Virus record (IMG/VR): IMGVR_UViG_3300009151_002763
Location: 1-39,315 of that record
DNA length: 39,315 nt
Direction: 5' to 3' (one strand)
Source: a virus
Shown one piece after another: positions 5,180-34,488 of the stretch; positions within the stretch are counted from its first letter, which is position 1, and every line of letters starts with the position of its first letter. The translations under genes and the position numbers were made by a program. The notes under the pieces are model-generated. The model did no database searches and was not told where the DNA came from. It saw only the letters and a program-made list of their open reading frames with translations.

Positions 5180-5212
5180 CGTCTGTTATATAAATAATAC
5201 TATTAACAGACG
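5180..5212 (+). repeat. Perfect 9-bp inverted repeat enclosing a late promoter
   Basis: CGTCTGTTA (5180-5188) and TAACAGACG (5204-5212) are exact reverse complements, separated by 15 bases that contain most of the TATAAATA box at 5189-5196. It lacks a GC-rich stem plus T-tract, so it is not a classical terminator. It could be a weak terminator or processing hairpin for the upstream mRNA, or a protein-binding palindrome over the promoter. Confidence 0.7.
5189..5196 (+). promoter_or_regulatory. T4-type late promoter (TATAAATA)
   Basis: Perfect match to the T4 late -10 consensus read by the phage sigma factor gp55 with the sliding clamp. It lies 34 bases upstream of the 5230 start codon, in the gap after the first glyco-cassette. 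It is expected to drive 5230, 5622 and the giant repeat gene. Confidence 0.8.
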
Positions 5213-5229: not shown

Positions 5230-5622
5230 ATGTCTATCAAAGTCCAAGGCACGACCGTAATCAGTGACGGTAGTGTATTCTATCCATTAAACACAGTTGA
5301 TCGCGCATCGACAGTATCCATATCATCAGGTACTCTTACCCTTGATCTCCAAGCTAGTTCAATCTTTGAACTAAACCTCACATCAAACGTTACATCATTA
5401 ACACTTAATAACGTTGCATCCAGTTCTGGTACTAACGTGACAAGCTTTACACTCATAACCATCGGCGATGGTACAGCACGTACTATAGCATGGCCAGGTA
5501 CTTTCGTTTGGCCAGGTGGTACAGCCCCAACAATCACATCCACATACGCTAAGAGAGACGTGTTCGTATTCTTCTACGAGAACACCGTGTGGCATGCATT
5601 CATCGCAGGACAAAACCTATAA
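5230..5622 (+). CDS. Small beta-rich putative virion protein
   Basis: A 130-residue protein with no family I recognise firmly. The sequence is strongly beta-type: alternating hydrophobics, Thr/Ser-rich, 'SSIFELNLTSNVTSLTLNN' and then 'TIAWPGTFVWPGG'. It ends in aromatic strands (VFVFFYENTVWHAFIAGQNL). Similar short proteins occur among structural genes of marine phages, and a fibre or baseplate-associated role is inferred from position after a late promoter and before a chaperone-like gene. A GGGAG ribosome site lies 6 bases upstream of the ATG. The stop overlaps the next start (TAATG). Confidence 0.7.
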   Translation: MSIKVQGTTVISDGSVFYPLNTVDRASTVSISSGTLTLDLQASSIFELNLTSNVTSLTLNNVASSSGTNVTSFTLITIGDGTARTIAWPGTFVWPGGTAPTITSTYAKRDVFVFFYENTVWHAFIAGQNL

Positions 5623-6113
5623 TGGCTAACTTCGCATACATAAAAGATGATGTAGTACAGGAAGTTCATGACAGCTTACCTGGAAACTGGAAAAATTACA
5701 GTAACTTCTTTGCATTAACAGATGAGACAGACTACCTTAAATCAATAGGTTGGTATCCAGTCGTCTATCAAGCACCAGAGTATGATGAGTCTACTAAGAA
5801 GCTTGGTCAACTAACATACAACTTTGATGGTACACAGGTCATCGAGTCTAATGAAGTCGTTGATAAACCAGTAGTATATACTCCTCCAGCTAAGACTGAA
5901 GCTGAACTATTAGCAGAAGCTTGGGTCGCAGTAAGAGCTCAAAGAGACTTACTCATGGCAGAAGCCGACTGGAGATATAATAGGTATGCAAGACAAGTAA
6001 GACTTGAGTTGACACCTACAGATGATATCGCTTTACTAGATGCATATATGCAGGCGTTAGCCGACGTCACTGCTCAAGAAGACCCTTATAATATTACATG
6101 GCCGACACTATAG
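5622..6113 (+). CDS. Tail-fibre/tail assembly chaperone-like protein
   Basis: A 163-residue protein. The start chosen is the ATG overlapping the previous stop (TAATG at 5620-5624), giving MANFAYIKDD. An upstream in-frame ATG at 5589 would lie inside the preceding gene. The C-terminal ~70 residues have the layout of phage tail assembly chaperones (Phage_tail_APC type): 'AVRAQRDLLMAEADWRYNRY', a second helix with 'ALLDAYMQALADVT', and a terminal NITWP. Such proteins help fold or assemble the adjacent tail fibre and are not always in the virion. It sits directly before the giant repeat gene (stop TAG abuts its ATG), which suggests the giant protein is its client. Confidence 0.7.
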   Translation: MANFAYIKDDVVQEVHDSLPGNWKNYSNFFALTDETDYLKSIGWYPVVYQAPEYDESTKKLGQLTYNFDGTQVIESNEVVDKPVVYTPPAKTEAELLAEAWVAVRAQRDLLMAEADWRYNRYARQVRLELTPTDDIALLDAYMQALADVTAQEDPYNITWPTL

Positions 6114-9100
6114 ATGTTAAGAAACCTGCTACTCGCTGCAGCTGGAGCTACATCACCAGTACAATTATCTTCAGGACCGTTATACTCCTGGGGTGATAAT
6201 ACCTATGGCGAGTTGGGTCTTAGTGACCTAGTACACCGTTCATCACCAGTCCAAGTTGGTAGTTCATCATGGATATCCATAGCATCAAGTAATAACTTCA
6301 CTGCAGCCATAAGTCCAGATTATAATCTCTATGTATGGGGAGATACTACTGCATTAGGGTATAGTGTAGATTATAGTAGTCCAACACTAGTAACTCCATT
6401 AGATGTTACAAACGCATATACACCAATTAGTTTTTCATTTACTCAAGTAGCTGCAGGAAATTCTCATTTAGTATTAAAAGGTACAAATCAAGAATATGGA
6501 ACAATCCCACTAACTCTTGGATATGGAGATAAGGGTCAACTTGGAGGTAATGCTACAAGTTGGCAAGATAAGAGCTGGACAATGGTCTCTACCGCTCCTG
6601 GTGGAACACATACTCTTGCGATCAATACAATTGACTATTCTTTATGGACATGGGGTAACAATGCTTCAGGTCAACTAGGTTTTGCCAACACAGTGCATAG
6701 ATCATCACCAGTTCAACTTGGTACTAATTCTTGGTATTATGTAGCAGCAGGAGGAAATGGAGCAGGCGGTCTTGGTTCTAGTTATGCGATCGATATGAAT
6801 GGACTTTTGTGGGCGTGGGGTGATAATACGTATGGTCAATTAGGTTTTGCCGACACAGTGCATAGATCATCACCAGTTCAAGTTGGTAGTAGTATTTGGA
6901 CTATAATATCAGCTGGTGGCGGTACAGCCATAGGTATCACAGAAGATAATAATAATCCTCCTAATTTTATTGATTTAACTGGAAGGCTTTGGTCATGGGG
7001 CAATAATACATACGGTAAGTTAGGCCAAAATGATCAAGTCCATCGTTCATCACCAACACAAGTTGGTACTAACAGTAGTTGGAAATTTGTTTCTACAGGT
7101 GTGTCACACGTAGCGGCTTTAGGTACATCACAGTTATTGTTTACTTGGGGATTGAACTCTACTGGTCAACTAGGTGATAATACTATAGTACATAGATCAT
7201 CACCAGTTCAAGTTGGCAGTAATGGATTTGATACTGTTGCATGTGGTGTGTCATTTACTGTTGCTTTATCTAGTAACAAATTAGTTACATGGGGTAGCAA
7301 CACTAATGGTGAATTAGGTTCAAATACAAGAGTACATAGATCATCACCAGTTCAAGTTGGTGCAGCAAACTATAAGATCCCTTCTTATGATTTTAGAGGC
7401 GGCGGTGGAATAGCTGCGTATACTGGTGCAGCTGTCATAGATGTTTCATATAAATTATGGGCTTGGGGGCCAAATACTACGGCATTTGGCTCGGTAGTAG
7501 GTGATGGCACTGTTGTATCACGTTCATCTCCTGTACAAATTGGTACGTCATCATGGAGTTTTATTACTTCTGGAGGTGTTGGCACAGTAGGTTATACCGC
7601 AGGAATTAAGACAGACGGAACATTGTTTTTATGGGGTAATAATACGAATGGTCAACTAGGTATAAACGTTGTCGGTGCACATCGTTCATCACCAACCCAA
7701 ATTGGTGCTTATAATGCATACACTACTAATTTAGTTAATCCAGGTTTTTATACCTTTGGTAGTGCAACATATGCTCGTAATGTATTCGCGGGAGGTAACA
7801 ACTCTGCGTATGTATCACAAGGAGATGCTGGAGCATATGTTGGTTATGTATATGTTTGGGGAGACAATACATATGGCCAAATAGGAGATAGTACAGTTGC
7901 ACATCGATCATCACCATTTCAAGTAGGTACATGGCCATTTGATAGAGGCGGATTATCTGCAAAGATGGGTATTGGTGCTAGCCATATGACCTTAATCTCT
8001 AATGATGGATCATTATGGACATGGGGTAATAATACTTCAGGACAACTTGGAAGTGCAACAGCAGCACACCGTTCATCTCCAGTACAAGTAGGTACATCAT
8101 CATGGTCTGCTGTGTCTGCAGGAGCATCACACACATTAGCCATAACATCCAATGGTTCTCTATATGGTTGGGGATCATACGCTGGTCAAACAGGATTCGC
8201 CCCAGCGTGGTGGACAGACGTTAATATCGCATACACGAGTTCTATAGGTCTTAAGAACGATGGTTCACTATGGACATGGGGTGGTAATGCTCTAGGTCAA
8301 CTTGGTAGCTTAACTCTTACACATCGTTCATCTCCTGTTCAAGTAGGCACATCTTCATGGACTGCTATAGCTGGTGAAGTAACTAGTAACTATGGTATAC
8401 TTAAAGATGGAGGGCTATATGCATGGGGCGGTAATACATATGGACAACTAGGTCTAAGTGACTTAGTACATCGATCATCTCCAGTACAAGTAGGTACATC
8501 AAGTTGGACATCATTAGGTGGCGGAGCTATAGATACAACTCTTGTTGTAAGAGTTGCAATCCGTAAAGATGGAGGATTATTTAGTTGGGGCGTTAATACT
8601 GTAGGTCAAATTGGTGATAGTTCGGCTATACACCGTTCATCTCCAGTTCAAATAGGTTCTTCATCATGGTCAGCGGTGTCATCTACAGGTGACTTCTCTG
8701 CAGGTATCAAGAAAGACGGCTCTCTATGGGTATGGGGTAACTTAACATCAGGTCAAGTTGGTAATAACTTCTCAGATGTATCATACTGGTCACAGATAAG
8801 TAACGGTGTATCACACTCAATGGCTATCAAGAACGATGGTACACTATGGGCATGGGGTAGCAATGCTAGTGGTCAACTAGGAGATGGAACATACACTTCT
8901 AAGTCTTCACCAGTACAAATCAGCACATCATCATGGACTTCTGTGTCTACTGGTACAGATCATACTATGGCTGTACGTTCTGATGGAGCTTTATTCGGTT
9001 GGGGCTTTAATCAGGTAGGTCAAGTAGGTGATAACTATCAAAATACTGTATATTCATGGACAACACTGAGTATAGGTGGAGGTAATACTACTGGTGGATT

Positions 9101-12100
9101 CAGGTTAGGTATTAGACAAGATGGATCTTTATGGGGTTGGGGTCTTGGTACAGGTGGTGCACTAGGCACAAACGATTCTATATCAAGAAGTTGGCCTGTA
9201 CAAATTGGATCTTCAACATGGACTTCGGTAGCTGCAGGTGCTTCTACAGCTATAGCTATTCGTAGCGATGGTGGGTTATTTACATGGGGATATAATCAAA
9301 ACGGTGGGTTAGGATTAAACGATCGTGTAGATAGATCATCACCAGTCCAAGTAGGTACATCAAGCTGGACATCGGTATTTTCTGGCGCAAACTCTTTATT
9401 TGCTATCAGAACAGACGGATCACTATGGTCATGGGGTTTAGGCATATTCGGTATCTTAGGATCTAACGCGGTTGGAGCTCGTTCATCACCTGTACAAGTT
9501 GGTACTACATCAAGTTGGACAAAAGTAGCTGCAACATTAAGTTATGCTTTAGCTTTAGATTCTGCTGGAGGGTTATGGTCATGGGGATCTGGTACAGGTG
9601 GGTTACTCGGATCTGCTGCAGCTGTGCATCGATCATCACCTGTTCAAGTAGGTACATCTTCATGGACAGCTATAGCTGCTGGTCTAAGCGGAGCTGCAGC
9701 TGTTAGATCGGATGGTGCTTTATTTACATGGGGATTTGGTATCAACGGCGTGTTAGGATCTAACGCTACTGCAAATCGTTCATCACCAGTGCAAGTTGGT
9801 ACATCATCATGGACACAAGTCATGACGACATACGCTGACTTAAATGACATGTGGGCTATTCTTTCAGACGGTGGGTTATTTGCATGGGGTGTTAACACTA
9901 ATGGCGAAGTTGATAACTCTGGTGCATCAGTATCATCTCCTGTTCAAGTAGGCACATCATCATGGTCACAAGTATATAGCGGCGCAGGAACTACACCTGC
10001 GGCCAAAGCTACTAATGGTTTAATATATACATGGGGCACAAATACTAACGGTGAGGCAGCTATAGCTTCACTTGGTACGAACGCTATAAACAATATACCT
10101 TATGATTTACTTGGATTAGCTACTCCAATTATATCACCAATACAGATTGGTACATCATCATGGTCATCTGTCTCAGCGTCAGCGCAGTATACTTTAGCTA
10201 TTAGATCTAATAATATGCTGTATGCATGGGGTTATAACTTTAATGGACTATTAGGTCAAAGCAATACAACACTCAGATCATCTCCAACACAAATTGGTAC
10301 TTCATCATGGACTGCTGTATCTACATTTACATCAAACGTAGCTGCATTAAGATCAGACGGTAGATTGTTTGCATGGGGAGATGACTCAACAGGTCAACTA
10401 GGTCAAGTGGATCAAAACGTTTCAAGGTCTTCACCAGTACAGATCGGTACATCATCATGGACAGCAATAGCCACTGGTCTAAACCACATGTTCGCTATTA
10501 AGTCTAATAATACATTATGGGGTTGGGGTGATGACACATACGGACAACTAGGTTTAAACATTAATACTACAACGTATCCTGCAGCATCATGGACAAGTAT
10601 AGGCATTGGTGTAGATCATGTTGCAGCTATTGATCAAGCTGGACGACTCATAACATGGGGTAACAACGCTACAGGTCAACTAGCCACTGGAACTACTACT
10701 GCAAGGTCTTCACCAACGCAAGTCGGTACGTCTTCATGGTCACAGGTATATTCTGGTTCTGGCACAACTTTTGTTAAAGCTATTGATTCAACGTTATATG
10801 CTACAGGTGCAAATACTACAGGTCAACTAGGTGATACCACTATAGTGAATAAGTCTTCGCTGGTACAAGTTGGTGGATCATGGTCAATGATCTCAGCTGG
10901 CGTATCTACCACAGCAGGTATCAAGGCAGACGGTACACTATGGGCATGGGGTAACGGTAACAACGGTATGCTTGGCCAAAATGATAAAACCTCTATCAAC
11001 AGATCATCACCTGTACAGATCGGTTCTGGTTCATGGACGACAGTGTCAGTAGGTATTAGTCATGTAGCTGCCGTAAGAAATGATGGTGCACTATTCACAT
11101 GGGGTTTTGGAGTTAATGGAGAACTTGGTGATAACCTTGCAAACTCTGCAAATCAAAGCTTCCAATCATGGGCATCTATAGCTGCCTCTGAGAGTACTAC
11201 TTTTGGTATCAAGGCAGACGGCACACTATGGTCATGGGGTAGTGGTAATATTGGTGCATTAGGTCAAAATAATACAACAAATTATTCTTCACCAGTGCAA
11301 ATTGGTGCATCAAGTTGGACAACTGTATCTACCGGAGGGTCATTCGCTGCAGCTATCAGATCTGATGGTACACTATGGTCATGGGGTAATGGTAATAATG
11401 GTGCATTAGGTCAAAATAATACAACAAATTATTCTTCACCAGTGCAAATTGGTGCATCAAGTTGGACATTAATTTATGCTACGTCCGGTAATGGTAGTGG
11501 TGGAATTGGTAGAATATATGGTATACGATCAGATGGCGGTTTGTTTGCATGGGGAGGTGGTAATAATGGTGTATTAGGTCTAAATGATTCGAATAATCGT
11601 TCTTCACCAGTGCAAATTGGTGCATCAAGTTGGACACAAGTGACCTCTGCACAACATACAGCAGCTAATGGAGCAATTCCATTTGCTGCAGCTATTAGGT
11701 CTGACGGTGGACTATTCACATGGGGTCAAAATACTTATGGTGTGTTTGGTGATGGTAGTCTTGATAATTCTTATCGTTCATCTCCAGTTCAAGTTGGTAC
11801 ATCATCATGGACATCAGTGGCAGCAGGTTCATCACACGCGGTCGGTATAACAACAGATGGTGCATTATGGACATGGGGTCTTGGTAGTACAGGTGAACTC
11901 GGTGATAATACTGGAATTATACCTAGCATATTATTTACACAAGTAGCATACGGTGTATCACATACGCTAGCTATCAAAGGTGATGGATCACTATGGGCGT
12001 GGGGATATAATATTAGCGGAGAATTAGGACTTACAGATCGTGTATACAGATCATCACCAGTCCAAATAGGTACATCATCATGGACAGCTATAGCCGCGAT

Positions 12101-15100
12101 AAAAGCTGGTAGTGCATCAGGGACAGCATCACTTGCTATACGTTCTGATGGAGCATTATTTAGCTGGGGTGGTGGTACAAATGGTGAGTTAGGAGACAGC
12201 ACAACAGCACCTCGATCATCACCAGTCCAAATAGGTACATCATCATGGACATCTATATATGCAGGTACATCACATGTAGGTGGTATAAGTAATTCAAGTT
12301 TATATGTATGGGGCGGTAATACTAGTGGTCAACTAGGAGATGGTACAACAGTATCCAAGTCTTCACCAGTACAAGTTGGTGCGTCTTCATGGACACAAGT
12401 ATCACTCGGCGATCAACATAGTTTAGGTATAGTTAGCTCAAAACTATATACATGGGGTCTTGGTACGTCTGGTCAGCTTGGTAATAACTTAGCAACTGCA
12501 ATCAATACTTCATGGTCACAGATTTCATATGGTGATTCTCATATAGTAGCACTCAAAGCAGATGGTTCATTATGGACATGGGGAGCAGATGATTCGGGTC
12601 AGCTAGGTGATAACACAAATGTGCACAGATCATCACCAGTACAAATAGGTACATCATCATGGACAGCTATAGCTGCCGGACCAACATATACTTTTGCGAT
12701 ACGTAGTGGTGGTAGTTTATTTGCATGGGGTAGTGGAGCAACATATGGAACTCTTGGCCTAAATGATACTTCAACTTATTCATCACCGGTTCAAGTAGGT
12801 ACTTCTTCATGGACAAGTGTTTATACTAATACAAGTTTTGTTGCAGCTATAAGAAGTGATAAAGCTTTATTTACATGGGGTGCTAATAATAGAGGACAAC
12901 TAGGAGACGGCTCTGCATATGTACATCGTTCATCTCCAGTGCAGATTGGTGCATCTTCATGGACAAGCGTTACGGCTGGTGATACACACACGATGGCTAT
13001 TCGTTCTGACGGAGCTTTGTTTGGATTTGGTAATAATGGTAACGGACAACTTGGAGACTTGGTAACTAGTACCATAAGCTTACCAACATATTCATGGACA
13101 CAGATTTCATATGGTTCTAATGATGGTGGTGGACAATTTGCATTAGCACTCAAAGCAGACGGGTCACTATGGTCATGGGGAGATAATACTGCAGGCGTAT
13201 TAGGCTTTACTGATACTGTGCATAGGTCATCACCAGTGCAAGTTGGTACGTCTTCATGGACATCTGTGTTTGCTGGAGTTTCAAATGCATTTGCTATCCG
13301 TTCAGACGGTGGATTATTTGCATGGGGTGCCAATCTCTCTACAGACCCATTACCGTTCAGTGATGCGACTGCTCGCTCATCTCCAGTACAAGTAGGTACG
13401 TCTTCATGGTCACAAGTATCAGGCGGTATTAGCTCTGCAACTGCAACGTATGCGGCTATTCGTTCAGACGGTGGGTTATTTGCATGGGGTGATAACACCT
13501 ACGGTCAGTTAGGTAATAATAGTAACTTTTTAAGTTCATCATCACCAGTACAGATCGGTACATCATCATGGTCATCAGTATCTGTTGGTGAGAGTCATAT
13601 CACAGCTATACGTAGTGGTGGATCATTATATGTATGGGGTGGTAATTCACAAGGTCAACTAGGTGACAATTTATCATTGGTCGGCACAGCTATACCTCAA
13701 CTTTCATGGACACAAATCCAAACTGGCCTTGGTGATTCAACAACTGGAAATAATCCACCATCTGCTGGTATCAAAGCCGACGGTTCATTATGGACATGGG
13801 GCTTAAACAGTAGTGGAGAATTAGGTTCAACCTCAAAAGTACATAGGTCATCACCAATACAAGTAGGTACATCATCATGGACAACAGTATCAGTTGGGTC
13901 ATCTATTGCAGCTGCTATTAAATCTGATGCTACACTCTGGACATGGGGTCTTAACTCTATTGGACAACTAGGAGACGGCACAGTAGTATCTCGATCATCA
14001 CCAGTTCAAATTGGCGGATCATGGTCTTCAGTTTCTGCAGGCATATCTGCACAACTCGGTGTTAAGAGTGATGGATCATTATGGTCATGGGGGTCTGGTA
14101 CTGGAGGACATTTAGGTTCTAATGCAGTTGCTCATCGTTCATCACCTGTACAAGTAGGTACATCGTCATGGTCACAAGTATGGACCAACGCTGCCGCAAC
14201 AACACAAAGCGTATATGCAACTAACTCTTCAGGTGTACTATATGCCTGGGGACTTAATACAAACTATAACTTAGGTGATACCACAGCTATACATCGTTCA
14301 TCACCAGTGCAGATAGGTACATCATCATGGTCTTCTATCGCGGCAGGATTAAGCACTACTATAGGTATATCAAATAATAGATTATTTGCATGGGGTGGCG
14401 GAGGTGGCGGACAACTAGGTGACAATGCGACATATTCTACTGCTGCTATTACAGTTACATCATGGAACTTCATAGCTATCAGTGGGCTTGGTAATAGCTT
14501 TGGTATCAAGTCAGACTCTACACTATGGACATGGGGCGGAGGTGGTTCTGGCGTCAATGGTACAGGTACTTCAACTTTCTCTCAGTCTTCTCCAGTACAG
14601 ATAACTGGTGTTGGTTATTCAAGCTGGTCACAAGTTTCTACTAATGGATACACTGCGGCTGGTATCACAACAAACGGTTTATTATGGACATGGGGATATA
14701 ATAATAGTGGTGAATTAGGCGTAAATGCAAGTGCTTCTAGGTCTACACCAGGTCAAATCAGTGCATCTTCATGGGCGTGTGTGAGTGTTGGTGGAGCAGG
14801 CGGAAATGGAGTCGTCGCGGCTATCACTACAGGTTTTGCACTATATACATGGGGTTATGGTACTAATGGACAACTAGGTAATAGTGTAACAACTAGTAGA
14901 TCATCTCCTGTGCAAGTTGGTACATCATCATGGGTACAAGTTTCGGTCGGTGGCTCACATGTAATAGCAATGCAGGTAAGTTCCGGGAATATATTTACAT
15001 GGGGTAGTAATACCTATGGTCAGTTAGGTTCAGTGGACTCAGTCACATCACGATCATCTCCAGTCCAAATCGGTACATCATCATATAAAGCTAATAATCC

Positions 15101-18100
15101 CACACTTGGTCGACCAATATCTATTGCTGCAGGATTGAGTCATACCCTGTTTGTTGGTGGTAATGCTGGAGTTGCTCAACTATGGACATGGGGCGGTAAT
15201 TCAAATGGTGAACTAGGTTCTAATACTGTAACAGCAAGATCATCACCAGTCCAAGTAGGTACTTCATCATGGTCACAAGTCGCTGCGGGTAATGGATTCT
15301 CGATAGGTATCGCAGCTCCTTCAGGTGCATTATATACATGGGGTGCTAATAATACAGGTCAACAAGGCTCTAATAACGGTAGTGGAATTGCTGCTAGATC
15401 TTCACCAGTTCAGGTAGGTACTACATCATCATATACAATGATATCTACAGGTGATGCGGGTAATAACACTACTGCTGCTGTAGCAGCTATCGTAGGATCT
15501 CAACTATGGGCATGGGGTAATAACACTAATGGTAACGTTGGTGATGGTACTACCCTACATAGATCATCTCCAGTCCAGATCGGTGCTGCAGCTGCGGTGG
15601 CGTCATTCTGGAGTACATCATCTCCTGTACAGATCGGTAGTTCATCATGGACACAGGTAGCAGTAAAAAATGGTAACTCATTCTTTGCAAGGAGAAATGA
15701 TGGTGCTCTATTTGCATGGGGTCTAAATACAAACGGTGAGTTGGGTCTTAATGACCTAGTACATAGATCGTCACCAGTTCAAGTAGGCTCATCATCATAC
15801 ACGACTATTGGAGCAAACAACGGCGCTCTTGGTGTTATAACTACAGGTGGTCTAGCATATCTATGGGGATTAGGTACTAGTGGACAACTTGGTGATAACA
15901 CGATCGTATCTAAGTCTTCGCCTGTACAAGTAGCATCTACATTATACACATCATTAGCATATCTATTGGCATCACCGATACAGATCGGTACTTCATCATG
16001 GTCACAAGTAGCCGCTGGCGCTTCATTCACAGCAGCTAGGAGGACAGACGGTGGTCTATTCACATGGGGATTAGGTACCGGTGGATTACTAGGTGACTCT
16101 ACAGTTGCATCAAGATCATCACCTGTACAAGTTGGTACATCATCATGGACATCAATAGCTACAAAGCTAAATGCTGTAGCTGGTATACTATCAGGTGGTG
16201 GGCTATATACATGGGGATTAAACGCTAATGGAGAACTAGGTTCAACCTCAAGAGTGCACCGCTCTTCACCAGTCCAAATCGGTACATCATCATTTACACA
16301 AGTTTCTGTTGGTCAAGTTGGCATGGGTGCAATCACGACAGGATCTACACTCTTTACGTGGGGTACTAACGGAGGTGGATGGCTCGGTGATAACTCAGTC
16401 ACATCACGATCATCTCCAGTACAGATTGGTCCTAACGCTTCTGGTATAATATCTCCTGTACAGATCGGTACATCATCATGGTCGCAAGTCACAGCTGGTT
16501 ACTTAAATTCATTCGCGATAAGGTCTGATGGTGCATTGTTCTCAATGGGTTATAATAATACTGGTGATTTAGGTCAAAGTGATCTAGTACATAGATCATC
16601 ACCAACACAAGTAGGTTCATCATCATGGACAAGTGTATCTTCAAGACTTAACCATGTACTTGGATTAACTATTGATGGAGGCTTATATACATGGGGATCT
16701 GGTACCGGTGGATTACAAGGATCTAATGCTACTGCAAATAGATCAGCACCAACACACGTAGGTACATCTTCATGGACATCAATATCTGCTGGAGTAAGTA
16801 ATGGTGGCGCTATTGGTCTTGGTAATACACTATTCACATGGGGATTAAATGGTACAGGTCAGCTAGGTGACAATACTGTAGTACACAGATCATCCCCTGT
16901 ACAAGTAGCTAACTCAACTTATAAGATCTTAAGTCCTACACAGATCGGTACATCATCATGGTCAACTGTAGCTGCAGGTAACTCATTCGCTGCTGCCTTA
17001 ACTGGAGTCAAGTATTGGTCGACAGTAGCTACATTAGCATCAGGATCTAGATTTGCAATAAGATATGATGGTGCATTGTTTGCATGGGGTGCAGGAACTA
17101 GTGGTATATTAGGCTCAAATGATACCGTACATAGATCATCTCCAGTCCAAGTAGGTGCATCTTCATGGACATCAATTTCATCTTTAGGTGATAGTGCGAT
17201 TATGGCTATTCGTGCTGACGGTGGTCTATTCACATGGGGATTAGGTACCGGTGGATTACTAGGTGACTCTACAGTTGCATCAAGATCATCTCCAGTACAA
17301 GTTGGTACATCATCATGGTCACAAATAGCGTCTGGTTGTTCTACAGCCGCGGCTATTCGTACTGACGGTGCACTATTCACATGGGGTGTCAATAGTGTTG
17401 GAGCACTAGGTGATAATACTATCGTTAGTAGATCATCTCCAGTACAAATAGCTGGATCATGGTCTAAAATTGCGGCAGGTGGTGATCAGAATTGGATGGT
17501 TGGTATCAAAGCAGGCGGCACACTATGGGCATGGGGAAGTAACACATATGGTCAACTTAGCTCTAATGATAGAGTACATCGTTCATCTCCTGTACAGGTC
17601 GGTACATCATCATGGTCTGCAGTTGCTGCACAGAGTGTGACAGTTGCAGCTATTCGTACTGACAGTGGACTATTTACATGGGGGTTTGGTGGTAATGGTC
17701 AACTTGGCTCTAATGATAGAGTACATCGTTCATCTCCAGTCCAAGTAGGTACTAATAGCTGGACCACTATAGGCGGTAACGGTCATAATTTAAATGAATG
17801 TATGTATGGTATCCTCACTGATAATACATTATACACGTGGGGTTATGGTAATTCTGGTCAACTAGGTGATAGTAATGCAGTAAATAGATCTTCACCAGTA
17901 CAAATTGGTGGATCTTGGAGTATAGTATCTATGCATAATACTACTACTGCGGGCATCACTATCGACGGTGCATTATATGCCTGGGGTGCAAACACATATG
18001 GTCAAGGAACTAGTGATAAGATAGTTTATTCATCTCCAGTCCAAGTAGGTAGTGAGATTATTTCACCTAGACTACATGTATGGGGTGATAACACATATGG

Positions 18101-21100
18101 TCAACTAGGTCTAAATGACGTAGCATCTAGATCATCACCAGTGCAAGTACCATCTGGTTTTGTTAATAAAGTTGTAGTGTTGACATCAGGAAGTTCAACT
18201 GTCATACCTTCTGACTTCTCATCATTGATATCTGTAGAAGCTATAGGTGGAGGTGGAGGTGTCAGTGGTGCAAATAGTGGAGGTTCTGGTGGTGGTGCAT
18301 ATGCAGTGACTACTTCTATCACCGGTTTAGCAGCAAATCAAACAGTTTATTATCAAGTTGGTGCTGGTGTAGATTCATGGTTGAATACTTCTAATGCTGT
18401 ACCTACATCTTCTACTACAGGTGTATTAGCAAAAGCTGGTAGTCCTAACTCAGGTGGAACTGGCGGTGCTGGTGGACTAGCAGCTTCATCTATAGGAAGT
18501 ACAGTATATAGCGGTGGTGATGGTGGTGGTAGTAATGCTGTAGCAAGTACTACGGGCGGGGGTGGTGGCGCAGCTGGACCAAATGGTGCAGGAGCTAATG
18601 GTGCTGCTAGCTCAGGTAGTTATGGTGGTGGCGGCGGTGGCGCTGATGGAGGTAGTGCTGGATCTGGTACTACGGGCGGTGCTGGTGCTGGTCCTGGTGG
18701 ATTAACAGGAACCGGATCTGGAGCAGGTGGTAACGGTTCAAGTGGTGGTGTAGGATCTCCAGGAACTACTCATTATATAACTTCATGGGGTGGAACTTAT
18801 GGTCCAGGAGGTGGTGGGGGTGGCGCTTATAGCTCCAGTGGTGGAGCTGGTGGTAATTATGGTGGTGGTGGCGGTGGTAATTATAATAACTTTACATCTA
18901 CTGGCACATCTGGTATCATAGTCATACGTTATGTATCAACAACAAATTATTCATTTGCTAGTATTGTTGCAAGCTCTTCAACACTAGCTTCTATTGATAG
19001 TACATCTTCTTTATGGATATGGGGTGCTGGCACAAATGGTGTCTTAGGTGACTTAACGACAGCCCATAGGTCATCACCTGTACAGATATCATCAAGTACA
19101 TCATGGTCTTCAGTATATGCAGGACCAAATAATATTGCTCTTAAGGCAATTACGCCAAGTAGTTACTTATATACATGGGGTCTTGGTACAGCAGGTCAAC
19201 TAGGTGATAACACGATCGTATCTAAGTCATCACCAGTCCAAATTGGTGGTATATATTATCTAAAGACTCCAACTAAGATCGGTACATCTTCATGGACATC
19301 AGTATCGGCTGGTACAGCTATCACATTTGGTAAACTATCAAATGGATCCATATATTCGTGGGGTAATAATACTAACGGACAACTAGGTCAAAGTGATCTA
19401 GTACATAGATCATCTCCTGTACAGATAGGTACATCATCATGGACAAGCGTATCAACTGGTACATCAACAGCATTTGGTATATCATCCACAAAAGCACTAT
19501 ATGCATGGGGTATAGGTACACTTGGTGCATTAGGTCTTAATAGTGTTGTTACTCAATCATCACCGACACAAGTCGGTCTACAACAATATGTACAACTATC
19601 TCCTGTGCAGATAGGTACATCATCATGGTCAACTGTATCTGCAGGTAACTCATTCACGGTAGCTATCAAGACAGATAATACACTGTGGGCATGGGGTAGC
19701 GGTAGTAATGGTATACTTGGTCAAAACGACACGACTAGCCGTTCATCACCTGTACAAATAGGTTCTTCGTCGTCTGCAAAGACTATACTCATAACATCTA
19801 CCGGATCTGGTACATTTACTATCCCATCAGATTTTTCTTCGATCGTAAAAGTAGAAGCAATAGGTGCTGGTGGTAATTCTATTGCAGGTGGTTCTCCAGG
19901 TGGTGGAGGAGGCGGTGGTGGTGCATTCGCAGCGACTACTACGATCACTGGATTAGCAGCAAATGGTACAGCATACTATAACGTTGCTGCAAATAGTTCT
20001 AGCAGTACATGGTTCAACGCGGCTGCTAATTCTGTTCCGACTTTATCTACACAAGGTGTGTTAGCAGCTCCTGGAGCAAACGGTACTTCATCAGCTGGTG
20101 GTACAGGTGGTCAAGCATCAAACTCTGTAGGTACGACTAAATATTCCGGTGGTGATGGTGGTTATGGTAATAGTCCTGGTGTTGGTGCGGGTGGTGGTGC
20201 CGCTGGTCCTGGAGGAGCAGGTGGTAATGGTCAGACAGGTGGTACAGTAGGTGGTGGCGGTGGTGGTGGTGGAACTACTGGAGCTGGTGGTGCGGGTGGT
20301 GTATACACTGGTAGTGGCAATGGTGCAGGAACTGCTGGAGCTAGCGGAGGAGGAGCCGGTGGTGGAGGTTCAGTTTCTGGAAGTGCAGGTGGATCAGGCA
20401 CATTCTGGACAGGTTCTATATACCCATCAACTACTGGTTCAGGTGCTACAGCAGGTTCTGGTGGAGGCGGTGGTTCAGTAAGTAATGGCACTGGATTTGC
20501 AGGTGGTGCATACGGCGGTGGAGCTGGTGCAGGAAATAATGCAGGTACTGCTGCTGTAGGTAGTCAAGGTATTATTGCATTTACTTATATGCCAATATCA
20601 ACAATATCTTGGTCATCAGTAACGACTGGTAACGGATATGTATTAGGTATATCAGGTGGAAACACATATGCATGGGGCAACAACTCATATGGTCAGATAG
20701 GTGACACCACTATAGCACATAGATCAGCTCCATTACAAGTCGGCACAAGTCTGTTAACAAGTGTAGCTGCACATCCATCAGCGTCGTTTGGCGGAGGTGT
20801 TACACCTACTCCTTCTATACTAGCTCTATGGGGTCAAAATACTAATGGTCAACTAGGTGCTAACAGTAGAGTACATAGGTCATCACCTGTACAAGTTGCT
20901 AGCATTACAGTATTGAAACAACTATCATCACCAACCCAGGTTGGTACATCTTCATGGACAATCATCGAAGCTGGTTCAGCATACAGTGCAGGTATTACTA
21001 GTGATAATACACTATATGCATGGGGTGCAGGTACCGCTGGTGCAGCCGATGGTACTACAGCACATCGTTCATCCCCAGTTCAGATAGGCAATATAGGATT

Positions 21101-22847
21101 TAATAGTATAGCTATAGGTGGTAATACATCTGATACTAACTTTGTAGGAGCAATACCTACTGGAACAACATCAAGTGGTACAAATGCTGCTTTGATAAGA
21201 GCAACTGCTGCAACCGGATCATTTACTATACCAACAGACTTCATATCATTTGTTTCTGTTGAAGCGATAGGCGGTGGTGCACACGGAGTTGTTGGCAGTA
21301 ATACATATTGGGGAGGTGGTGGTGGCGGTGGTGCAGCATATGCTAAGTCAACCTCTATCTCAGGATTAACTAAAGGTCAAACACTCTACTATCAAGTTGG
21401 TTCTGGAGGTAGCGGCACGCCTACAGATACATGGTTAAACACATCTAATAATGCTCCAACTTCTTCTACGACTGGTGTATTAGCAAAAGCTGGTTCACTT
21501 GGGTCTGGATCAACCGGAGGAACTGGAGGTAGTGCATCATCATGCATAGGTGATGTTGCATATTCAGGTGGTAATGGCGGTACTGGAAATAGTTTCTCAG
21601 GTGCTGGAGGTGGTGGTAGTGCTGGTCCAAATGGTGCAGGCGGCAATGGTGGTAACGGTTCAGGTTCTTCATCTGGTGGAGGTGGTGGAGCTGACGGTGG
21701 TACTAGTGCTTCTGGAAGGACTGCAGGTCTTGGACCTAATAGTGGAACTGGAACAGGATCTGGTCAAGGAGGTGCAGGTATTAGCAGTAACACTGCTGCT
21801 GGAGTAGGTACTACTCATTGGATATCTTCATGGGGCGGAACTTATGGTCCAAGCGGCGGTGGTGGAGGCGGCTATTCTGGTAGTACGGGCCAACCTGGTG
21901 GGAATGCTGGAACCTATGGTGGTGGTGGTGGTGGCGGTTATACAAGTGGTAAAGCTGGTGGTAATGGAGGCATAGGTATCATTGCATTTAATTACCTAGG
22001 AACTACAGGCATCACAAAAACTATCTACGTATGGGGAGCTAATACATCAGGTCAACTTGGTGACTCTACTGTAGTAGCTAAGTCATCACCAGTCCAGGTT
22101 GCTGTATTAACTACATACTATAGATCTTCACCAGTACAAGTTGGATCAGACTCATGGGCAACTGTATCAACTGGTTTATCTAAGATATTTGGTATCAAGA
22201 CAGATAATACCTTATGGGCATGGGGTAATAATACATACGGTGAGTTAAGTCAGGGTGATACAGCGGCGCGTTCATCCCCAGTTCAGATAGGCGGAGCATG
22301 GAGTAAAGTAATAGCAGGTCAAACAAACGTTATGGCATTAAGATCTGATAGTACTTTATGGGTATGGGGCAATGATTCTAGAGGAGTATTAGGTCTTGGT
22401 ACTGTTGGATCTACGGTACTTTCTCCAACCCAATTAGGTACTGGTTCATGGTCAATGGTATATACAAATTCAATAGACTCTGCAGCTATAGACGTACAAC
22501 AAAACTTATGGACATGGGGTGATGCAACCAATGGCCAATTAGGAGATATTGCTCATTTACACCGTTCATCACCAGTTCAAATAGGTACAGGATATGGTGG
22601 TCTTACAACGACTACATCAAGTCCAATACAGATAGGTGCATTAAGTTGGTCATCAGTATCAGCTGGTACAAACTTCTCTATGGGTATTAATACTGCTGGC
22701 AATCTATATACATGGGGAGCTAATACATCAGGTCAACTTGGTCAAAACGTATATACTCCTGTGTTATCAAGTCCAGTACAAGTTGGCACAAGTAGTTGGG
22801 TAGCAGTCTCAGCTGGAACATCTCATGCTGGTGCTTTAAGGAAGTAG
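6114..22847 (+). CDS. Giant RCC1-repeat (beta-propeller) fibre/adhesin-like protein, 5577 aa
   Basis: One continuous frame of 5577 codons. After a short N-terminus (MLRNLLLAAAGA) the RCC1 pattern begins at about residue 24. It repeats every ~45-55 residues: a 'LW.WG.N..GQLG' strand block, '..HRSSPVQVGTSSW', then 'T.V..G..H..AI..DG'. I counted about 89 copies of the SSPVQ-type signature by eye. Three glycine-rich domains interrupt the last third (residues ~4020-4273, ~4556-4825, ~5027-5295). RCC1 repeats fold as beta-propellers used for protein binding (RCC1, BLIP-II). A virion adhesin role is inferred from the late promoter, the tail-assembly-chaperone-like neighbour and the fibre locus. I see no signal peptide, transmembrane helix, catalytic motif or recognised baseplate-attachment domain. 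There is no clear ribosome site; translation is probably coupled to the abutting upstream stop. Confidence 0.9.
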   Translation: MLRNLLLAAAGATSPVQLSSGPLYSWGDNTYGELGLSDLVHRSSPVQVGSSSWISIASSNNFTAAISPDYNLYVWGDTTALGYSVDYSSPTLVTPLDVTNAYTPISFSFTQVAAGNSHLVLKGTNQEYGTIPLTLGYGDKGQLGGNATSWQDKSWTMVSTAPGGTHTLAINTIDYSLWTWGNNASGQLGFANTVHRSSPVQLGTNSWYYVAAGGNGAGGLGSSYAIDMNGLLWAWGDNTYGQLGFADTVHRSSPVQVGSSIWTIISAGGGTAIGITEDNNNPPNFIDLTGRLWSWGNNTYGKLGQNDQVHRSSPTQVGTNSSWKFVSTGVSHVAALGTSQLLFTWGLNSTGQLGDNTIVHRSSPVQVGSNGFDTVACGVSFTVALSSNKLVTWGSNTNGELGSNTRVHRSSPVQVGAANYKIPSYDFRGGGGIAAYTGAAVIDVSYKLWAWGPNTTAFGSVVGDGTVVSRSSPVQIGTSSWSFITSGGVGTVGYTAGIKTDGTLFLWGNNTNGQLGINVVGAHRSSPTQIGAYNAYTTNLVNPGFYTFGSATYARNVFAGGNNSAYVSQGDAGAYVGYVYVWGDNTYGQIGDSTVAHRSSPFQVGTWPFDRGGLSAKMGIGASHMTLISNDGSLWTWGNNTSGQLGSATAAHRSSPVQVGTSSWSAVSAGASHTLAITSNGSLYGWGSYAGQTGFAPAWWTDVNIAYTSSIGLKNDGSLWTWGGNALGQLGSLTLTHRSSPVQVGTSSWTAIAGEVTSNYGILKDGGLYAWGGNTYGQLGLSDLVHRSSPVQVGTSSWTSLGGGAIDTTLVVRVAIRKDGGLFSWGVNTVGQIGDSSAIHRSSPVQIGSSSWSAVSSTGDFSAGIKKDGSLWVWGNLTSGQVGNNFSDVSYWSQISNGVSHSMAIKNDGTLWAWGSNASGQLGDGTYTSKSSPVQISTSSWTSVSTGTDHTMAVRSDGALFGWGFNQVGQVGDNYQNTVYSWTTLSIGGGNTTGGFRLGIRQDGSLWGWGLGTGGALGTNDSISRSWPVQIGSSTWTSVAAGASTAIAIRSDGGLFTWGYNQNGGLGLNDRVDRSSPVQVGTSSWTSVFSGANSLFAIRTDGSLWSWGLGIFGILGSNAVGARSSPVQVGTTSSWTKVAATLSYALALDSAGGLWSWGSGTGGLLGSAAAVHRSSPVQVGTSSWTAIAAGLSGAAAVRSDGALFTWGFGINGVLGSNATANRSSPVQVGTSSWTQVMTTYADLNDMWAILSDGGLFAWGVNTNGEVDNSGASVSSPVQVGTSSWSQVYSGAGTTPAAKATNGLIYTWGTNTNGEAAIASLGTNAINNIPYDLLGLATPIISPIQIGTSSWSSVSASAQYTLAIRSNNMLYAWGYNFNGLLGQSNTTLRSSPTQIGTSSWTAVSTFTSNVAALRSDGRLFAWGDDSTGQLGQVDQNVSRSSPVQIGTSSWTAIATGLNHMFAIKSNNTLWGWGDDTYGQLGLNINTTTYPAASWTSIGIGVDHVAAIDQAGRLITWGNNATGQLATGTTTARSSPTQVGTSSWSQVYSGSGTTFVKAIDSTLYATGANTTGQLGDTTIVNKSSLVQVGGSWSMISAGVSTTAGIKADGTLWAWGNGNNGMLGQNDKTSINRSSPVQIGSGSWTTVSVGISHVAAVRNDGALFTWGFGVNGELGDNLANSANQSFQSWASIAASESTTFGIKADGTLWSWGSGNIGALGQNNTTNYSSPVQIGASSWTTVSTGGSFAAAIRSDGTLWSWGNGNNGALGQNNTTNYSSPVQIGASSWTLIYATSGNGSGGIGRIYGIRSDGGLFAWGGGNNGVLGLNDSNNRSSPVQIGASSWTQVTSAQHTAANGAIPFAAAIRSDGGLFTWGQNTYGVFGDGSLDNSYRSSPVQVGTSSWTSVAAGSSHAVGITTDGALWTWGLGSTGELGDNTGIIPSILFTQVAYGVSHTLAIKGDGSLWAWGYNISGELGLTDRVYRSSPVQIGTSSWTAIAAIKAGSASGTASLAIRSDGALFSWGGGTNGELGDSTTAPRSSPVQIGTSSWTSIYAGTSHVGGISNSSLYVWGGNTSGQLGDGTTVSKSSPVQVGASSWTQVSLGDQHSLGIVSSKLYTWGLGTSGQLGNNLATAINTSWSQISYGDSHIVALKADGSLWTWGADDSGQLGDNTNVHRSSPVQIGTSSWTAIAAGPTYTFAIRSGGSLFAWGSGATYGTLGLNDTSTYSSPVQVGTSSWTSVYTNTSFVAAIRSDKALFTWGANNRGQLGDGSAYVHRSSPVQIGASSWTSVTAGDTHTMAIRSDGALFGFGNNGNGQLGDLVTSTISLPTYSWTQISYGSNDGGGQFALALKADGSLWSWGDNTAGVLGFTDTVHRSSPVQVGTSSWTSVFAGVSNAFAIRSDGGLFAWGANLSTDPLPFSDATARSSPVQVGTSSWSQVSGGISSATATYAAIRSDGGLFAWGDNTYGQLGNNSNFLSSSSPVQIGTSSWSSVSVGESHITAIRSGGSLYVWGGNSQGQLGDNLSLVGTAIPQLSWTQIQTGLGDSTTGNNPPSAGIKADGSLWTWGLNSSGELGSTSKVHRSSPIQVGTSSWTTVSVGSSIAAAIKSDATLWTWGLNSIGQLGDGTVVSRSSPVQIGGSWSSVSAGISAQLGVKSDGSLWSWGSGTGGHLGSNAVAHRSSPVQVGTSSWSQVWTNAAATTQSVYATNSSGVLYAWGLNTNYNLGDTTAIHRSSPVQIGTSSWSSIAAGLSTTIGISNNRLFAWGGGGGGQLGDNATYSTAAITVTSWNFIAISGLGNSFGIKSDSTLWTWGGGGSGVNGTGTSTFSQSSPVQITGVGYSSWSQVSTNGYTAAGITTNGLLWTWGYNNSGELGVNASASRSTPGQISASSWACVSVGGAGGNGVVAAITTGFALYTWGYGTNGQLGNSVTTSRSSPVQVGTSSWVQVSVGGSHVIAMQVSSGNIFTWGSNTYGQLGSVDSVTSRSSPVQIGTSSYKANNPTLGRPISIAAGLSHTLFVGGNAGVAQLWTWGGNSNGELGSNTVTARSSPVQVGTSSWSQVAAGNGFSIGIAAPSGALYTWGANNTGQQGSNNGSGIAARSSPVQVGTTSSYTMISTGDAGNNTTAAVAAIVGSQLWAWGNNTNGNVGDGTTLHRSSPVQIGAAAAVASFWSTSSPVQIGSSSWTQVAVKNGNSFFARRNDGALFAWGLNTNGELGLNDLVHRSSPVQVGSSSYTTIGANNGALGVITTGGLAYLWGLGTSGQLGDNTIVSKSSPVQVASTLYTSLAYLLASPIQIGTSSWSQVAAGASFTAARRTDGGLFTWGLGTGGLLGDSTVASRSSPVQVGTSSWTSIATKLNAVAGILSGGGLYTWGLNANGELGSTSRVHRSSPVQIGTSSFTQVSVGQVGMGAITTGSTLFTWGTNGGGWLGDNSVTSRSSPVQIGPNASGIISPVQIGTSSWSQVTAGYLNSFAIRSDGALFSMGYNNTGDLGQSDLVHRSSPTQVGSSSWTSVSSRLNHVLGLTIDGGLYTWGSGTGGLQGSNATANRSAPTHVGTSSWTSISAGVSNGGAIGLGNTLFTWGLNGTGQLGDNTVVHRSSPVQVANSTYKILSPTQIGTSSWSTVAAGNSFAAALTGVKYWSTVATLASGSRFAIRYDGALFAWGAGTSGILGSNDTVHRSSPVQVGASSWTSISSLGDSAIMAIRADGGLFTWGLGTGGLLGDSTVASRSSPVQVGTSSWSQIASGCSTAAAIRTDGALFTWGVNSVGALGDNTIVSRSSPVQIAGSWSKIAAGGDQNWMVGIKAGGTLWAWGSNTYGQLSSNDRVHRSSPVQVGTSSWSAVAAQSVTVAAIRTDSGLFTWGFGGNGQLGSNDRVHRSSPVQVGTNSWTTIGGNGHNLNECMYGILTDNTLYTWGYGNSGQLGDSNAVNRSSPVQIGGSWSIVSMHNTTTAGITIDGALYAWGANTYGQGTSDKIVYSSPVQVGSEIISPRLHVWGDNTYGQLGLNDVASRSSPVQVPSGFVNKVVVLTSGSSTVIPSDFSSLISVEAIGGGGGVSGANSGGSGGGAYAVTTSITGLAANQTVYYQVGAGVDSWLNTSNAVPTSSTTGVLAKAGSPNSGGTGGAGGLAASSIGSTVYSGGDGGGSNAVASTTGGGGGAAGPNGAGANGAASSGSYGGGGGGADGGSAGSGTTGGAGAGPGGLTGTGSGAGGNGSSGGVGSPGTTHYITSWGGTYGPGGGGGGAYSSSGGAGGNYGGGGGGNYNNFTSTGTSGIIVIRYVSTTNYSFASIVASSSTLASIDSTSSLWIWGAGTNGVLGDLTTAHRSSPVQISSSTSWSSVYAGPNNIALKAITPSSYLYTWGLGTAGQLGDNTIVSKSSPVQIGGIYYLKTPTKIGTSSWTSVSAGTAITFGKLSNGSIYSWGNNTNGQLGQSDLVHRSSPVQIGTSSWTSVSTGTSTAFGISSTKALYAWGIGTLGALGLNSVVTQSSPTQVGLQQYVQLSPVQIGTSSWSTVSAGNSFTVAIKTDNTLWAWGSGSNGILGQNDTTSRSSPVQIGSSSSAKTILITSTGSGTFTIPSDFSSIVKVEAIGAGGNSIAGGSPGGGGGGGGAFAATTTITGLAANGTAYYNVAANSSSSTWFNAAANSVPTLSTQGVLAAPGANGTSSAGGTGGQASNSVGTTKYSGGDGGYGNSPGVGAGGGAAGPGGAGGNGQTGGTVGGGGGGGGTTGAGGAGGVYTGSGNGAGTAGASGGGAGGGGSVSGSAGGSGTFWTGSIYPSTTGSGATAGSGGGGGSVSNGTGFAGGAYGGGAGAGNNAGTAAVGSQGIIAFTYMPISTISWSSVTTGNGYVLGISGGNTYAWGNNSYGQIGDTTIAHRSAPLQVGTSLLTSVAAHPSASFGGGVTPTPSILALWGQNTNGQLGANSRVHRSSPVQVASITVLKQLSSPTQVGTSSWTIIEAGSAYSAGITSDNTLYAWGAGTAGAADGTTAHRSSPVQIGNIGFNSIAIGGNTSDTNFVGAIPTGTTSSGTNAALIRATAATGSFTIPTDFISFVSVEAIGGGAHGVVGSNTYWGGGGGGGAAYAKSTSISGLTKGQTLYYQVGSGGSGTPTDTWLNTSNNAPTSSTTGVLAKAGSLGSGSTGGTGGSASSCIGDVAYSGGNGGTGNSFSGAGGGGSAGPNGAGGNGGNGSGSSSGGGGGADGGTSASGRTAGLGPNSGTGTGSGQGGAGISSNTAAGVGTTHWISSWGGTYGPSGGGGGGYSGSTGQPGGNAGTYGGGGGGGYTSGKAGGNGGIGIIAFNYLGTTGITKTIYVWGANTSGQLGDSTVVAKSSPVQVAVLTTYYRSSPVQVGSDSWATVSTGLSKIFGIKTDNTLWAWGNNTYGELSQGDTAARSSPVQIGGAWSKVIAGQTNVMALRSDSTLWVWGNDSRGVLGLGTVGSTVLSPTQLGTGSWSMVYTNSIDSAAIDVQQNLWTWGDATNGQLGDIAHLHRSSPVQIGTGYGGLTTTTSSPIQIGALSWSSVSAGTNFSMGINTAGNLYTWGANTSGQLGQNVYTPVLSSPVQVGTSSWVAVSAGTSHAGALRK
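11253..11468 (+). repeat. Recent tandem duplication inside the RCC1 array (147-bp period)
   Basis: The ~69 bases starting at 11253 recur identically starting at 11400, one 49-residue repeat later; flanking bases are also nearly the same. The core recurs in part near 11600. This high identity contrasts with the synonymous divergence elsewhere in the array and points to a recent duplication or gene conversion. Confidence 0.85.
11901..13661 (+). repeat. Three tandem higher-order units of four RCC1 repeats
   Basis: Junctions at 11901, 12480, 13053 and 13662 lack the HRSSPVQVG segment and read GDN/GNN/GDL followed by a short variable stretch and then an aromatic-containing strand. They delimit units of 579, 573 and 609 bases. 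Each unit opens with an (I/L)K.DGSLW repeat, and three repeats of IRS.G.LF or LY type follow. This is a second level of periodicity above the single RCC1 repeat. Confidence 0.7.
16047..17290 (+). repeat. Dispersed exact 74-bp duplication, 1170 bp apart
   Basis: Bases 16047-16120 and 17217-17290 are identical by eye and encode the same stretch (GLGTGGLLGDSTVASRSS). The offset is exactly 390 codons, so the duplication is in phase with the reading frame. This suggests segment duplication of several repeats or gene conversion. Confidence 0.8.
18171..18935 (+). other. Glycine-rich insert domain 1 of the giant protein
   Basis: Residues ~4020-4273. It begins 'VVVLTSGSSTVIPSDFSS', continues SVEAIGGGGG, carries many Gly3-Gly6 runs, and ends GIIVIRYV. 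This beta-start, poly-Gly, beta-end layout is the glycine-rich domain seen in many phage tail-fibre and adhesin proteins. The Gly runs could pack as polyglycine helices, as in the S16-type gp38 adhesin. Confidence 0.8.
19779..20590 (+). other. Glycine-rich insert domain 2 of the giant protein
   Basis: Residues ~4556-4825. Same layout as insert 1: 'KTILITSTGSGTFTIPSDF', KVEAIGAGG, long Gly/Ala/Ser tracts, ending GIIAFTYM. RCC1 repeats resume directly after it. Confidence 0.8.
21192..22000 (+). other. Glycine-rich insert domain 3 of the giant protein
   Basis: Residues ~5027-5295. It begins LIRATAATGSFTIPTDF, continues SVEAIGGG and ends GIIAFNYLG. It is closer to insert 1 than to insert 2: both share LNTSN..PTSSTTGVLAKAGS and SWGGTYGP before the final Gly tract. 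Confidence 0.8.
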
Positions 22848-22855
22848 TATAAATA
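22848..22855 (+). promoter_or_regulatory. T4-type late promoter (TATAAATA)
   Basis: Perfect late-box match immediately after the stop codon of the giant gene, 66 bases upstream of the 22922 start. It is expected to drive the second glyco-cassette late in infection. Confidence 0.75.
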
Positions 22856-24661: not shown

Positions 24662-25344
24662 GGTTCATACTAGATAATACTAAAGATTTGATACAAAAAT
24701 GTTTAGCAAAGGGTTCCTTCTATGAGCAGGAGGAGCTCGATCTACTAGCTAAGTACATATCACCTGGTTGGAACATCATCGACGTGGGTGCTAACATAGG
24801 CAACCATGCGTTCTACTTTGATAAGAACTGTAAACCAAACGTAGTATATGTCATTGAACCATTAGTGCGTGCATATCAACTCATGCTCACTAACTCAGCA
24901 CTCAACTACTGTCATACGCTTAACTTTGATTACCTCGGTATCGGTCTAGGAAGCCATGAAGGTAAGTATGAGATATGCCAAGTAGATGAGAACAACCTTG
25001 GTGGTACGATACTCATGGAGTGTCCTGTGACACACACTAAAGAACAAATGGATCTTATCACTAAGGTCACAGCTACTCCTCAGACCCTCACAGTAGTGAC
25101 GGGTGATTCTATATTCGCAGATAAGAAGATAGACCTAATCAAGATAGACGTGGAGACGATGGAGATAGACGTACTCGTTGGATTTGAGAAGACTATTATA
25201 AAAAACCAACCTCTTATATTCATTGAGATATGGAACAAGAAGCTATCTGAATTCCAGTCTTGGTTGAAGGAACATAAGTATAAGATAATTAAGACCACAA
25301 GTAAACATGAGAATTACCAAAACTTTTTGATTGGACCTATATGA
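24658..25344 (+). CDS. FkbM-family SAM-dependent methyltransferase
   Basis: A 228-residue class I methyltransferase. Motif I is NIIDVGANIGNHAFYF (residues ~37-52), followed by VYVIEP. The FkbM signature LIKIDVETMEIDVLVGFE lies near 159-176, with PLIFIEIW after it. The usual IDVEG.E is IDVETME here, which is a small variation. FkbM enzymes are typically O-methyltransferases for sugars or secondary metabolites. ATGA overlaps at both ends place it in the 22922-27498 operon. Confidence 0.87.
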   Translation: MRFILDNTKDLIQKCLAKGSFYEQEELDLLAKYISPGWNIIDVGANIGNHAFYFDKNCKPNVVYVIEPLVRAYQLMLTNSALNYCHTLNFDYLGIGLGSHEGKYEICQVDENNLGGTILMECPVTHTKEQMDLITKVTATPQTLTVVTGDSIFADKKIDLIKIDVETMEIDVLVGFEKTIIKNQPLIFIEIWNKKLSEFQSWLKEHKYKIIKTTSKHENYQNFLIGPI

Positions 25345-30136: not shown

Positions 30137-30137
30137 C

Positions 30138-32455: not shown

Positions 32456-32459
32456 TAGT

Positions 32460-32467: not shown

Positions 32468-32473
32468 TATGTA

Positions 32474-34486: not shown

Positions 34487-34488
34487 CA

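Follow-up and report, generated by a model that had tools for sequence, protein, structure and literature searches.

The giant RCC1 gene and its neighbours

The window analysed here, 39,315 bases long, is the entire IMG/VR record, a linear fragment of an uncultivated virus whose source phage is a freshwater relative of phage T4. Its genes and features are as follows.

1..1833, + strand: tail fibre with collagen-like repeats and a C-terminal Peptidase_S74 domain, 5′ end truncated by the window edge
1888..3489, + strand: Glycos_transf_2/HtrL-like protein (Pfam)
3486..5168, + strand: fusion of a group 1 glycosyltransferase and a methyltransferase (Pfam)
5189..5196, + strand: T4-type late promoter TATAAATA (consensus match only), 5′ of the small fibre-chaperone-RCC1 operon
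5230..5622, + strand: small tail-fibre-like protein of 130 aa (PHROG tail fibre families, best 3.4e-10)
5622..6113, + strand: Phage_tail_APC/tail-fibre-assembly chaperone-like protein (PF16778; phrog_188/4912, tail fiber assembly)
6114..22847, + strand: giant RCC1-repeat protein, 5,577 aa, ATG start, stop-free, 557 kDa, pI 6.8
6114..6179, + strand: N-terminal peptide MLRNLLLAAAGATSPVQLSSGP ahead of the first blade
6180..18161, + strand: main RCC1 array (aa 23-4016); its irregular junctions lack the outer strand or have it doubled
18162..19010, + strand: glycine-rich module 1 (aa ~4017-4299, 30% Gly)
19833..20594, + strand: glycine-rich module 2 (aa ~4574-4827, 36% Gly)
21132..22025, + strand: glycine-rich module 3 (aa ~5007-5304, 33% Gly)
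22026..22844, + strand: C-terminal RCC1 blades (aa 5305-5577)
22848..22855, + strand: T4-type late promoter TATAAATA 5′ of MT579 (pattern scan)
22922..24661, + strand: MT579, with an N-terminal helical and GT9-like glycosyltransferase fold and a C-terminal SAM methyltransferase
24658..27498, + strand: FkbM methyltransferase, GT25 glycosyltransferase, Methyltransf_24 and GT2 glycosyltransferase (Pfam)
27536..36734, + strand: T4-like neck proteins (gp13, gp14, gp15-type), terminase, tail sheath, tail tube and portal (PHROGs)

The first-pass annotation had described an uninterrupted frame filling 43% of the window, and all 5,577 codons are indeed open, occupying 42.6% of the 39,315 bases. Pfam RCC1 (PF00415) gave 85 matches at E≤1e-3 in the record, most of them above the curated cut-off of 21.7 bits, versus 0 in 14 control genomes. 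The profile search of the translation that the annotation had proposed as a check returned overwhelming whole-protein matches to PF25390 (E=0) and PF00415 (E=0 / 1.6e-217), with scores of 1018.8 and 704.6 bits; the protein also matched phrog_4219 at 3.7e-220, and an NCBIfam search gave no match. An HMM built from the protein's own repeats recognized 102 domains (98 at i-E≤1e-3) covering 4,357 of the 5,577 residues (78%). Its WG signature column was filled in 89 copies, the number previously estimated by eye, and the measured period was ~49-50 aa rather than the ~55 residues assumed before. The earlier description of the protein as almost wholly RCC1 holds for ~78% of its length, the array being broken by the three glycine-rich modules (roughly 15%), all of which fall within the last 1,600 residues. 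The third shows a weak Gly_rich_2 match (E=0.0057) under the cut-off. Overall composition was 17.6% Gly, 25.7% Ser+Thr and 3.4% Lys+Arg.

A recognized N-terminal virion-docking domain is usual, not universal, in tail fibres and receptor-binding proteins. The search of the RCC1 protein N-terminus for such a domain revealed no Pfam or PHROG tail domain, only the short hydrophobic peptide MLRNLLLAAAGATSPVQLSSGP. A short hydrophobic, LL-containing peptide also opens many RCC1 proteins of relatives, and it is possibly a docking peptide.

The late promoter and the tail-assembly-chaperone-like gene that had been noted upstream were both recovered, as TATAAATA at 5189 and as a PF16778 match at E=6.9e-9. 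The likely start of the chaperone-like gene is at 5622 (its longest frame begins at 5589), its stop abuts the RCC1 gene start, and tblastn against phage records found no sequence-level match to it. TATAAATA occurs as five exact + strand copies, shortly before the starts of the small fibre gene, MT579, gp13, gp18 and gp19, and the same pattern scan found none on the − strand. The sugar-transfer genes at 1888..5168 matched phrog_3408 at 3.2e-192. The structure of MT579 was predicted by AF2 with a pLDDT of 89.5, and Foldseek matched it to the GT9 structure 3tov (3.5e-8) and also to SAM methyltransferases. At the left edge, the truncated fibre carried Pfam Collagen (1.1e-25) and Peptidase_S74 (2.9e-18, an intramolecular chaperone) together with a PHROG tail fibre assignment. 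This collagen-like fibre lies near the GT25 gene (25341-26051); GT25 is the family of collagen galactosyltransferases, and the fibre may be glycosylated.

The proteins nearest to the portal were those of Methylophilales (55%) and Pelagibacter (54%) phages and of cyanophages (53%). An assignment to cyanobacterial hosts via psbA was not upheld, as this gene was absent from the long relatives of the window, including a 220-kb one, and was found only in S-SRM01. Several other genes of the T4-like cluster deserve mention. Directly after the portal in the head gene cluster, 37985-39103 encodes a protein of 372 aa whose C-terminal part has GLEYA (2.8e-18) and PA14 (4e-13) domains, both of lectin-type adhesins. 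Between the gp14 and gp15-type genes, a 151-aa protein (29681-30136) matches the T4 gp9/gp10 baseplate N-terminal domain over its first 40 residues (5e-6) and could be a fibre adaptor. The gp14-like neck protein (28542-29681) and the tail sheath (32528-34486) each have stretches that match one common set of giant virion-protein PHROGs (701, 5342, 4406, 460), which suggests that the two proteins may share an inserted domain.

Recurrence and variation of the array in relatives

In relatives, the operon runs from an S74 fibre through the small fibre and APC genes to one to three RCC1 genes, MT579 and GT25/MT204/GT2, followed in some contigs by T4-like neck genes. In 64 of the 73 informative relatives, MT579 is immediately preceded by an RCC1 gene. 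In most contigs with the upstream side visible, the immediate 5′ neighbour of the RCC1 gene, or of the first one where there are several, is the chaperone gene. Homologues of GT25, MT204 and GT2 recur, and a homologue of the 130-aa fibre protein occupies the same position. Sixty of the relatives, those whose arrays span 700 aa or more, formed 39 clusters at 95% MT identity. The same APC-RCC1-MT579-gp13 cassette was present in a contig binned as Bacteroidetes (L180, CAIWHI010000271.1), in which the terminase lies in separate reading frames, perhaps through an insertion or frame change.

LamG/ConA-lectin modules were found inside the arrays of several relatives (PF13385, to 7e-23). They are numerous among the RCC1 repeats of G004, G014 and G015 (L160-L165), whose frames span 6,285-8,626 aa, and long relatives have LamG genes at other places too. 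Relatives lacking RCC1 carry another repeat array with DUF6242 matches, or a glycine-rich protein, in the same slot; in L113 and L114 this is a long “AVGxxGTILTSSDGxTWT” repeat array with a DUF6242 match, Asp-box-like by eye. Where two or three genes share the array, the leading one mostly closes with “..GQLGDGT” and its successor opens with “..TNRSSPxQ” or the following strand, placing the junction within one blade, mostly with a 0-4-nt overlap. A programmed frameshift joining the split genes was rejected on the basis of these mostly 0-4-nt overlaps, the mid-repeat ends and the lack of a slippery site by eye.

Repeats are prone to mis-assembly and the record, a linear fragment, comes from an uncultivated virus; the frame could accordingly be a metagenome mis-assembly or a functionless, neutral repeat expansion. 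Several observations make this scarcely credible. The longest exact internal DNA repeat in the frame is 74 nt and the sequence contains zero N's, so short-read collapse or expansion of the array is unlikely. Giant RCC1 frames recur at the same locus in dozens of viral contigs, among them a complete frame of 7,937 aa (G015), open frames of at least 8,626 aa (G004) and at least 6,285 aa (G014), and tandem frames of 5,159 + 3,105 + 3,286 aa (G002) and 5,123 + 4,821 aa (G017). Two records that stem from different metagenomes share the 5,123-aa frame without a single difference over its 15,372 nt, which together with the short exact repeats led us to reject an assembly artefact. Within the arrays dN/dS was about 0.1-0.35, indicating purifying selection. 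The recurrence, the identical frame in two assemblies and the low dN/dS therefore show a genuine, constrained coding class.

Median identity between clusters was 73% for MT579 and 70% for GT25 versus 40.5% for the last 700 aa of the array. In relatives, not in the window phage, we observed sharply bounded divergent blocks inside the array in four independent close pairs. L061 and L063 are 99% identical in MT579, and their array block at aa ~940-1690 is 51-76% identical with one 90% stretch; dS rises from 0.21 outside the block to 1.68 inside, with dN/dS of 0.20 and 0.17, respectively. This jump in dS with dN/dS near 0.2 indicates that the block was acquired by recombination, as an allele of a distantly related phage, and did not arise by rapid adaptive point mutation. 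The last ~400 aa of L103/L104 are 38-67% identical versus 80-100% before, and a similar bounded block was found in L082/L083. Three of the four swapped blocks lie toward the array C-terminus; the tips of phage fibres are where these proteins normally vary. No donors of the swapped blocks were present among the retrieved loci. The array was also considered as a target of a diversity-generating retroelement, which was rejected since no RVT_1 reverse transcriptase was found in the window or in 18 long relatives, which are mostly fragments.

Propeller structure and known phage RCC1 proteins

AF2 prediction for aa 1950-2860 was of moderate confidence (pLDDT 73, pTM 0.46), and its low-confidence stretches coincided with three blades without an outer strand. 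Foldseek aligned ~375 columns of this segment to the whole seven-bladed UVR8 (TMt 0.76, rmsd ~4; pTM 0.46). The propellers of UVR8, HERC2 RLD and RCC1 are the closest solved sequences and folds, but, unlike the window array, they are single seven-bladed eukaryotic domains. The proposal of roughly a dozen seven-bladed propellers finds only partial support: it gains from the superposition on the UVR8 ring and from the ~7 and ~14 blades of the S-SRM01 and BUCT-ZZ01 proteins described below, and loses from the boundaries of giant arrays, which lack a seven-blade period. A first count of these boundaries hinted at a mode at 7 that the boundary-to-boundary count did not uphold.

Among isolated phages, the closest arrangement was found in Synechococcus phage BUCT-ZZ01, whose 700-aa UTS52180.1 contains the same repeat type (~40% identity) in the same APC, RCC1 and MT gene order, with an MT579 homologue (48.7%) and with a tail fibre gene and T4-like neck genes nearby as in the window. 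Its RCC1 protein differs in having 14 blades, in being 8 times shorter and in lacking a glycine-rich or LamG module. In Synechococcus phage S-SRM01 (Kyanoviridae), the RCC1 proteins gp335, gp337 and gp344 are encoded beside the long tail fibre distal subunit, with glycosyltransferase genes nearby as in the window; unlike the window array, these genes are separate and each encodes about one propeller (6-7 WG motifs, 345-405 aa). Small RCC1 proteins were detected in virions by mass spectrometry for E. coli phage W70 (phrog_4219 proteins, PMC11370258) and Cronobacter phage GAP32 (GAP_001, PMC5259590). The W70 proteins are of 40-43 kDa compared to 557 kDa here, and their genes W70_237-239 are numbered far from tail genes 106-137 (PMC11370258).

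The tail fibres of Pseudomonas phages PollyC and Ppr_SeaP3 combine a T7-type N-terminus with distal RCC1 propellers. The T7 N-terminus match scored 23 bits, under the Pfam cut-off of 25.2, and PHROG tail-fibre families matched residues 1-334 at 1.7e-66. These are podophage fibres of ~866 aa and, with their T7-type N-terminal domain, differ from the window protein. The receptor-binding protein Gp45 of phage phi11 also contains beta-propellers (PMC4901313), which are five-bladed, trimeric and non-RCC1 in contrast to the window array, and glycine-rich domains occur in the fibre tips of Pam3 (PMC9608196). RCC1 proteins of 1,000-1,700 aa are present in uncultured phage entries, and the PHROG 7220 model has a length of 1,734. 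Outside phages, a protein on a lake-water Hymenobacter plasmid (NZ_CP114768.1, 286757-288784), annotated with a T9SS sorting domain and containing RCC1 repeats, is 39.5% identical to the phage array over 684 aa. Algal-virus papers retrieved for RCC1 were set aside, “RCC” being a culture-collection code there. Small RCC1 proteins of phages are already known. In the open-access literature, which leaves most subscription papers outside, we found no account of this operon or of RCC1 arrays this large, and both appear to be undescribed.

Function of the giant RCC1 protein

RCC1 is a general binding fold, and function is therefore not deducible from the fold. The operon, the LamG lectins, the swaps, the fibre fusions, the virion RCC1 proteins and the known propeller and glycine-rich fibre domains favour an adhesin, and the gene product is probably a modular, multivalent virion adhesin of a T4-like phage. 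The giant multivalent adhesin first proposed for this tail-fibre locus thereby becomes the best-supported reading, drawing on an operon conserved in dozens of relatives, on LamG modules and segment swaps in their arrays, and on the RCC1-fibre fusions of the two Pseudomonas phages and mass spectrometry of small virion RCC1 proteins. As in tail-fibre genes, the RCC1 gene lies in a tail-fibre module with a fibre chaperone; late transcription is indicated by the TATAAATA consensus match only, at 5189, and a variable, swapped region amid conserved flanks by relatives, not the window itself. Counted against an adhesin were the N-terminus without a known docking domain, the moderate AF2 confidence, the giant-array boundaries without a seven-blade period, the W70 RCC1 genes distant from tail genes and their suspected DNA-encapsulation role, and the swap donors that were not found.

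As a virion adhesin, the protein would be made late, together with the tail-fibre-assembly-type chaperone, and may dock to the particle via its short N-terminus. Its blades would form a chain of closed beta-propellers, and the loop faces of these, along with the glycine-rich modules (LamG in relatives), could bind the host surface at many points. Judging from gene neighbourhood and late timing, the neighbouring GT9/methyltransferase, GT25, GT2 and other enzymes may glycosylate and methyl-cap the Ser/Thr-rich fibre; alternatively, the same enzymes may modify host glycans. Homologous recombination would shift specificity by exchanging parts of the array, mostly those near its C-terminus.

An unlikely alternative is a late-made non-virion protein, displayed by the infected cell or shed from it, which might block superinfection or alter aggregation. 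The nearest plasmid-borne bacterial relatives include T9SS-sorting-domain RCC1 proteins (Hymenobacter), and the flanking sugar-transfer genes could change the host surface; however, no secretion signal was seen by eye, the gene abuts the tail chaperone gene, and homologous small proteins reside in virions. We consider it very improbable that the product is a packaged DNA-condensing protein that helps compact the genome in the capsid, as suspected for RCC1 proteins by authors cited for W70, whose report repeats the suggestion for its virion proteins (PMC11370258), and as implied by the PHROG placement of RCC1 families under DNA metabolism. The window protein is not basic (pI 6.8, 3.4% Lys+Arg, 25.7% Ser+Thr), its gene lies in a tail-fibre operon with a tail chaperone, relatives carry lectin modules, RCC1 is found fused to a tail-fibre N-terminus, and an extended 557-kDa protein would be an unlikely capsid filler. 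Binding to proteins is what RCC1 folds do in known cases: BLIP-II binds beta-lactamase and RCC1 itself binds Ran. An intracellular host-takeover protein acting on a host enzyme would fit that precedent, but the protein's size, its late promoter and tail operon, the lectin modules and the modular swapping make it a most improbable role here.

Beyond a virion adhesin in general, we raise as a tentative and rather doubtful possibility that these loci encode a distinct host-binding organ, composed of propeller-lectin fibres of 0.5 to >1 MDa, sometimes with mid-blade cistron splits at which subunits could complete each other's blade, served by a dedicated GT9-methyltransferase and diversified by allele recombination rather than by a retroelement. 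If the adhesin reading is true, a common aquatic T4-like phage group spends 16 to 35 kb on one adhesin locus and offers a natural array-length series from 7 to over 100 blades. Near-identical phage pairs differing mainly by swapped blocks could then tie host range to defined propellers. PHROGs 4219, 7220 and 16766 are labelled “regulator of chromosome condensation, DNA metabolism”. This label looks wrong because phrog_4219 spans full-length tail-fibre proteins such as that of PollyC; for phage RCC1 families it would be misleading if they are adhesins, and “virion or tail adhesin” would be the better name.
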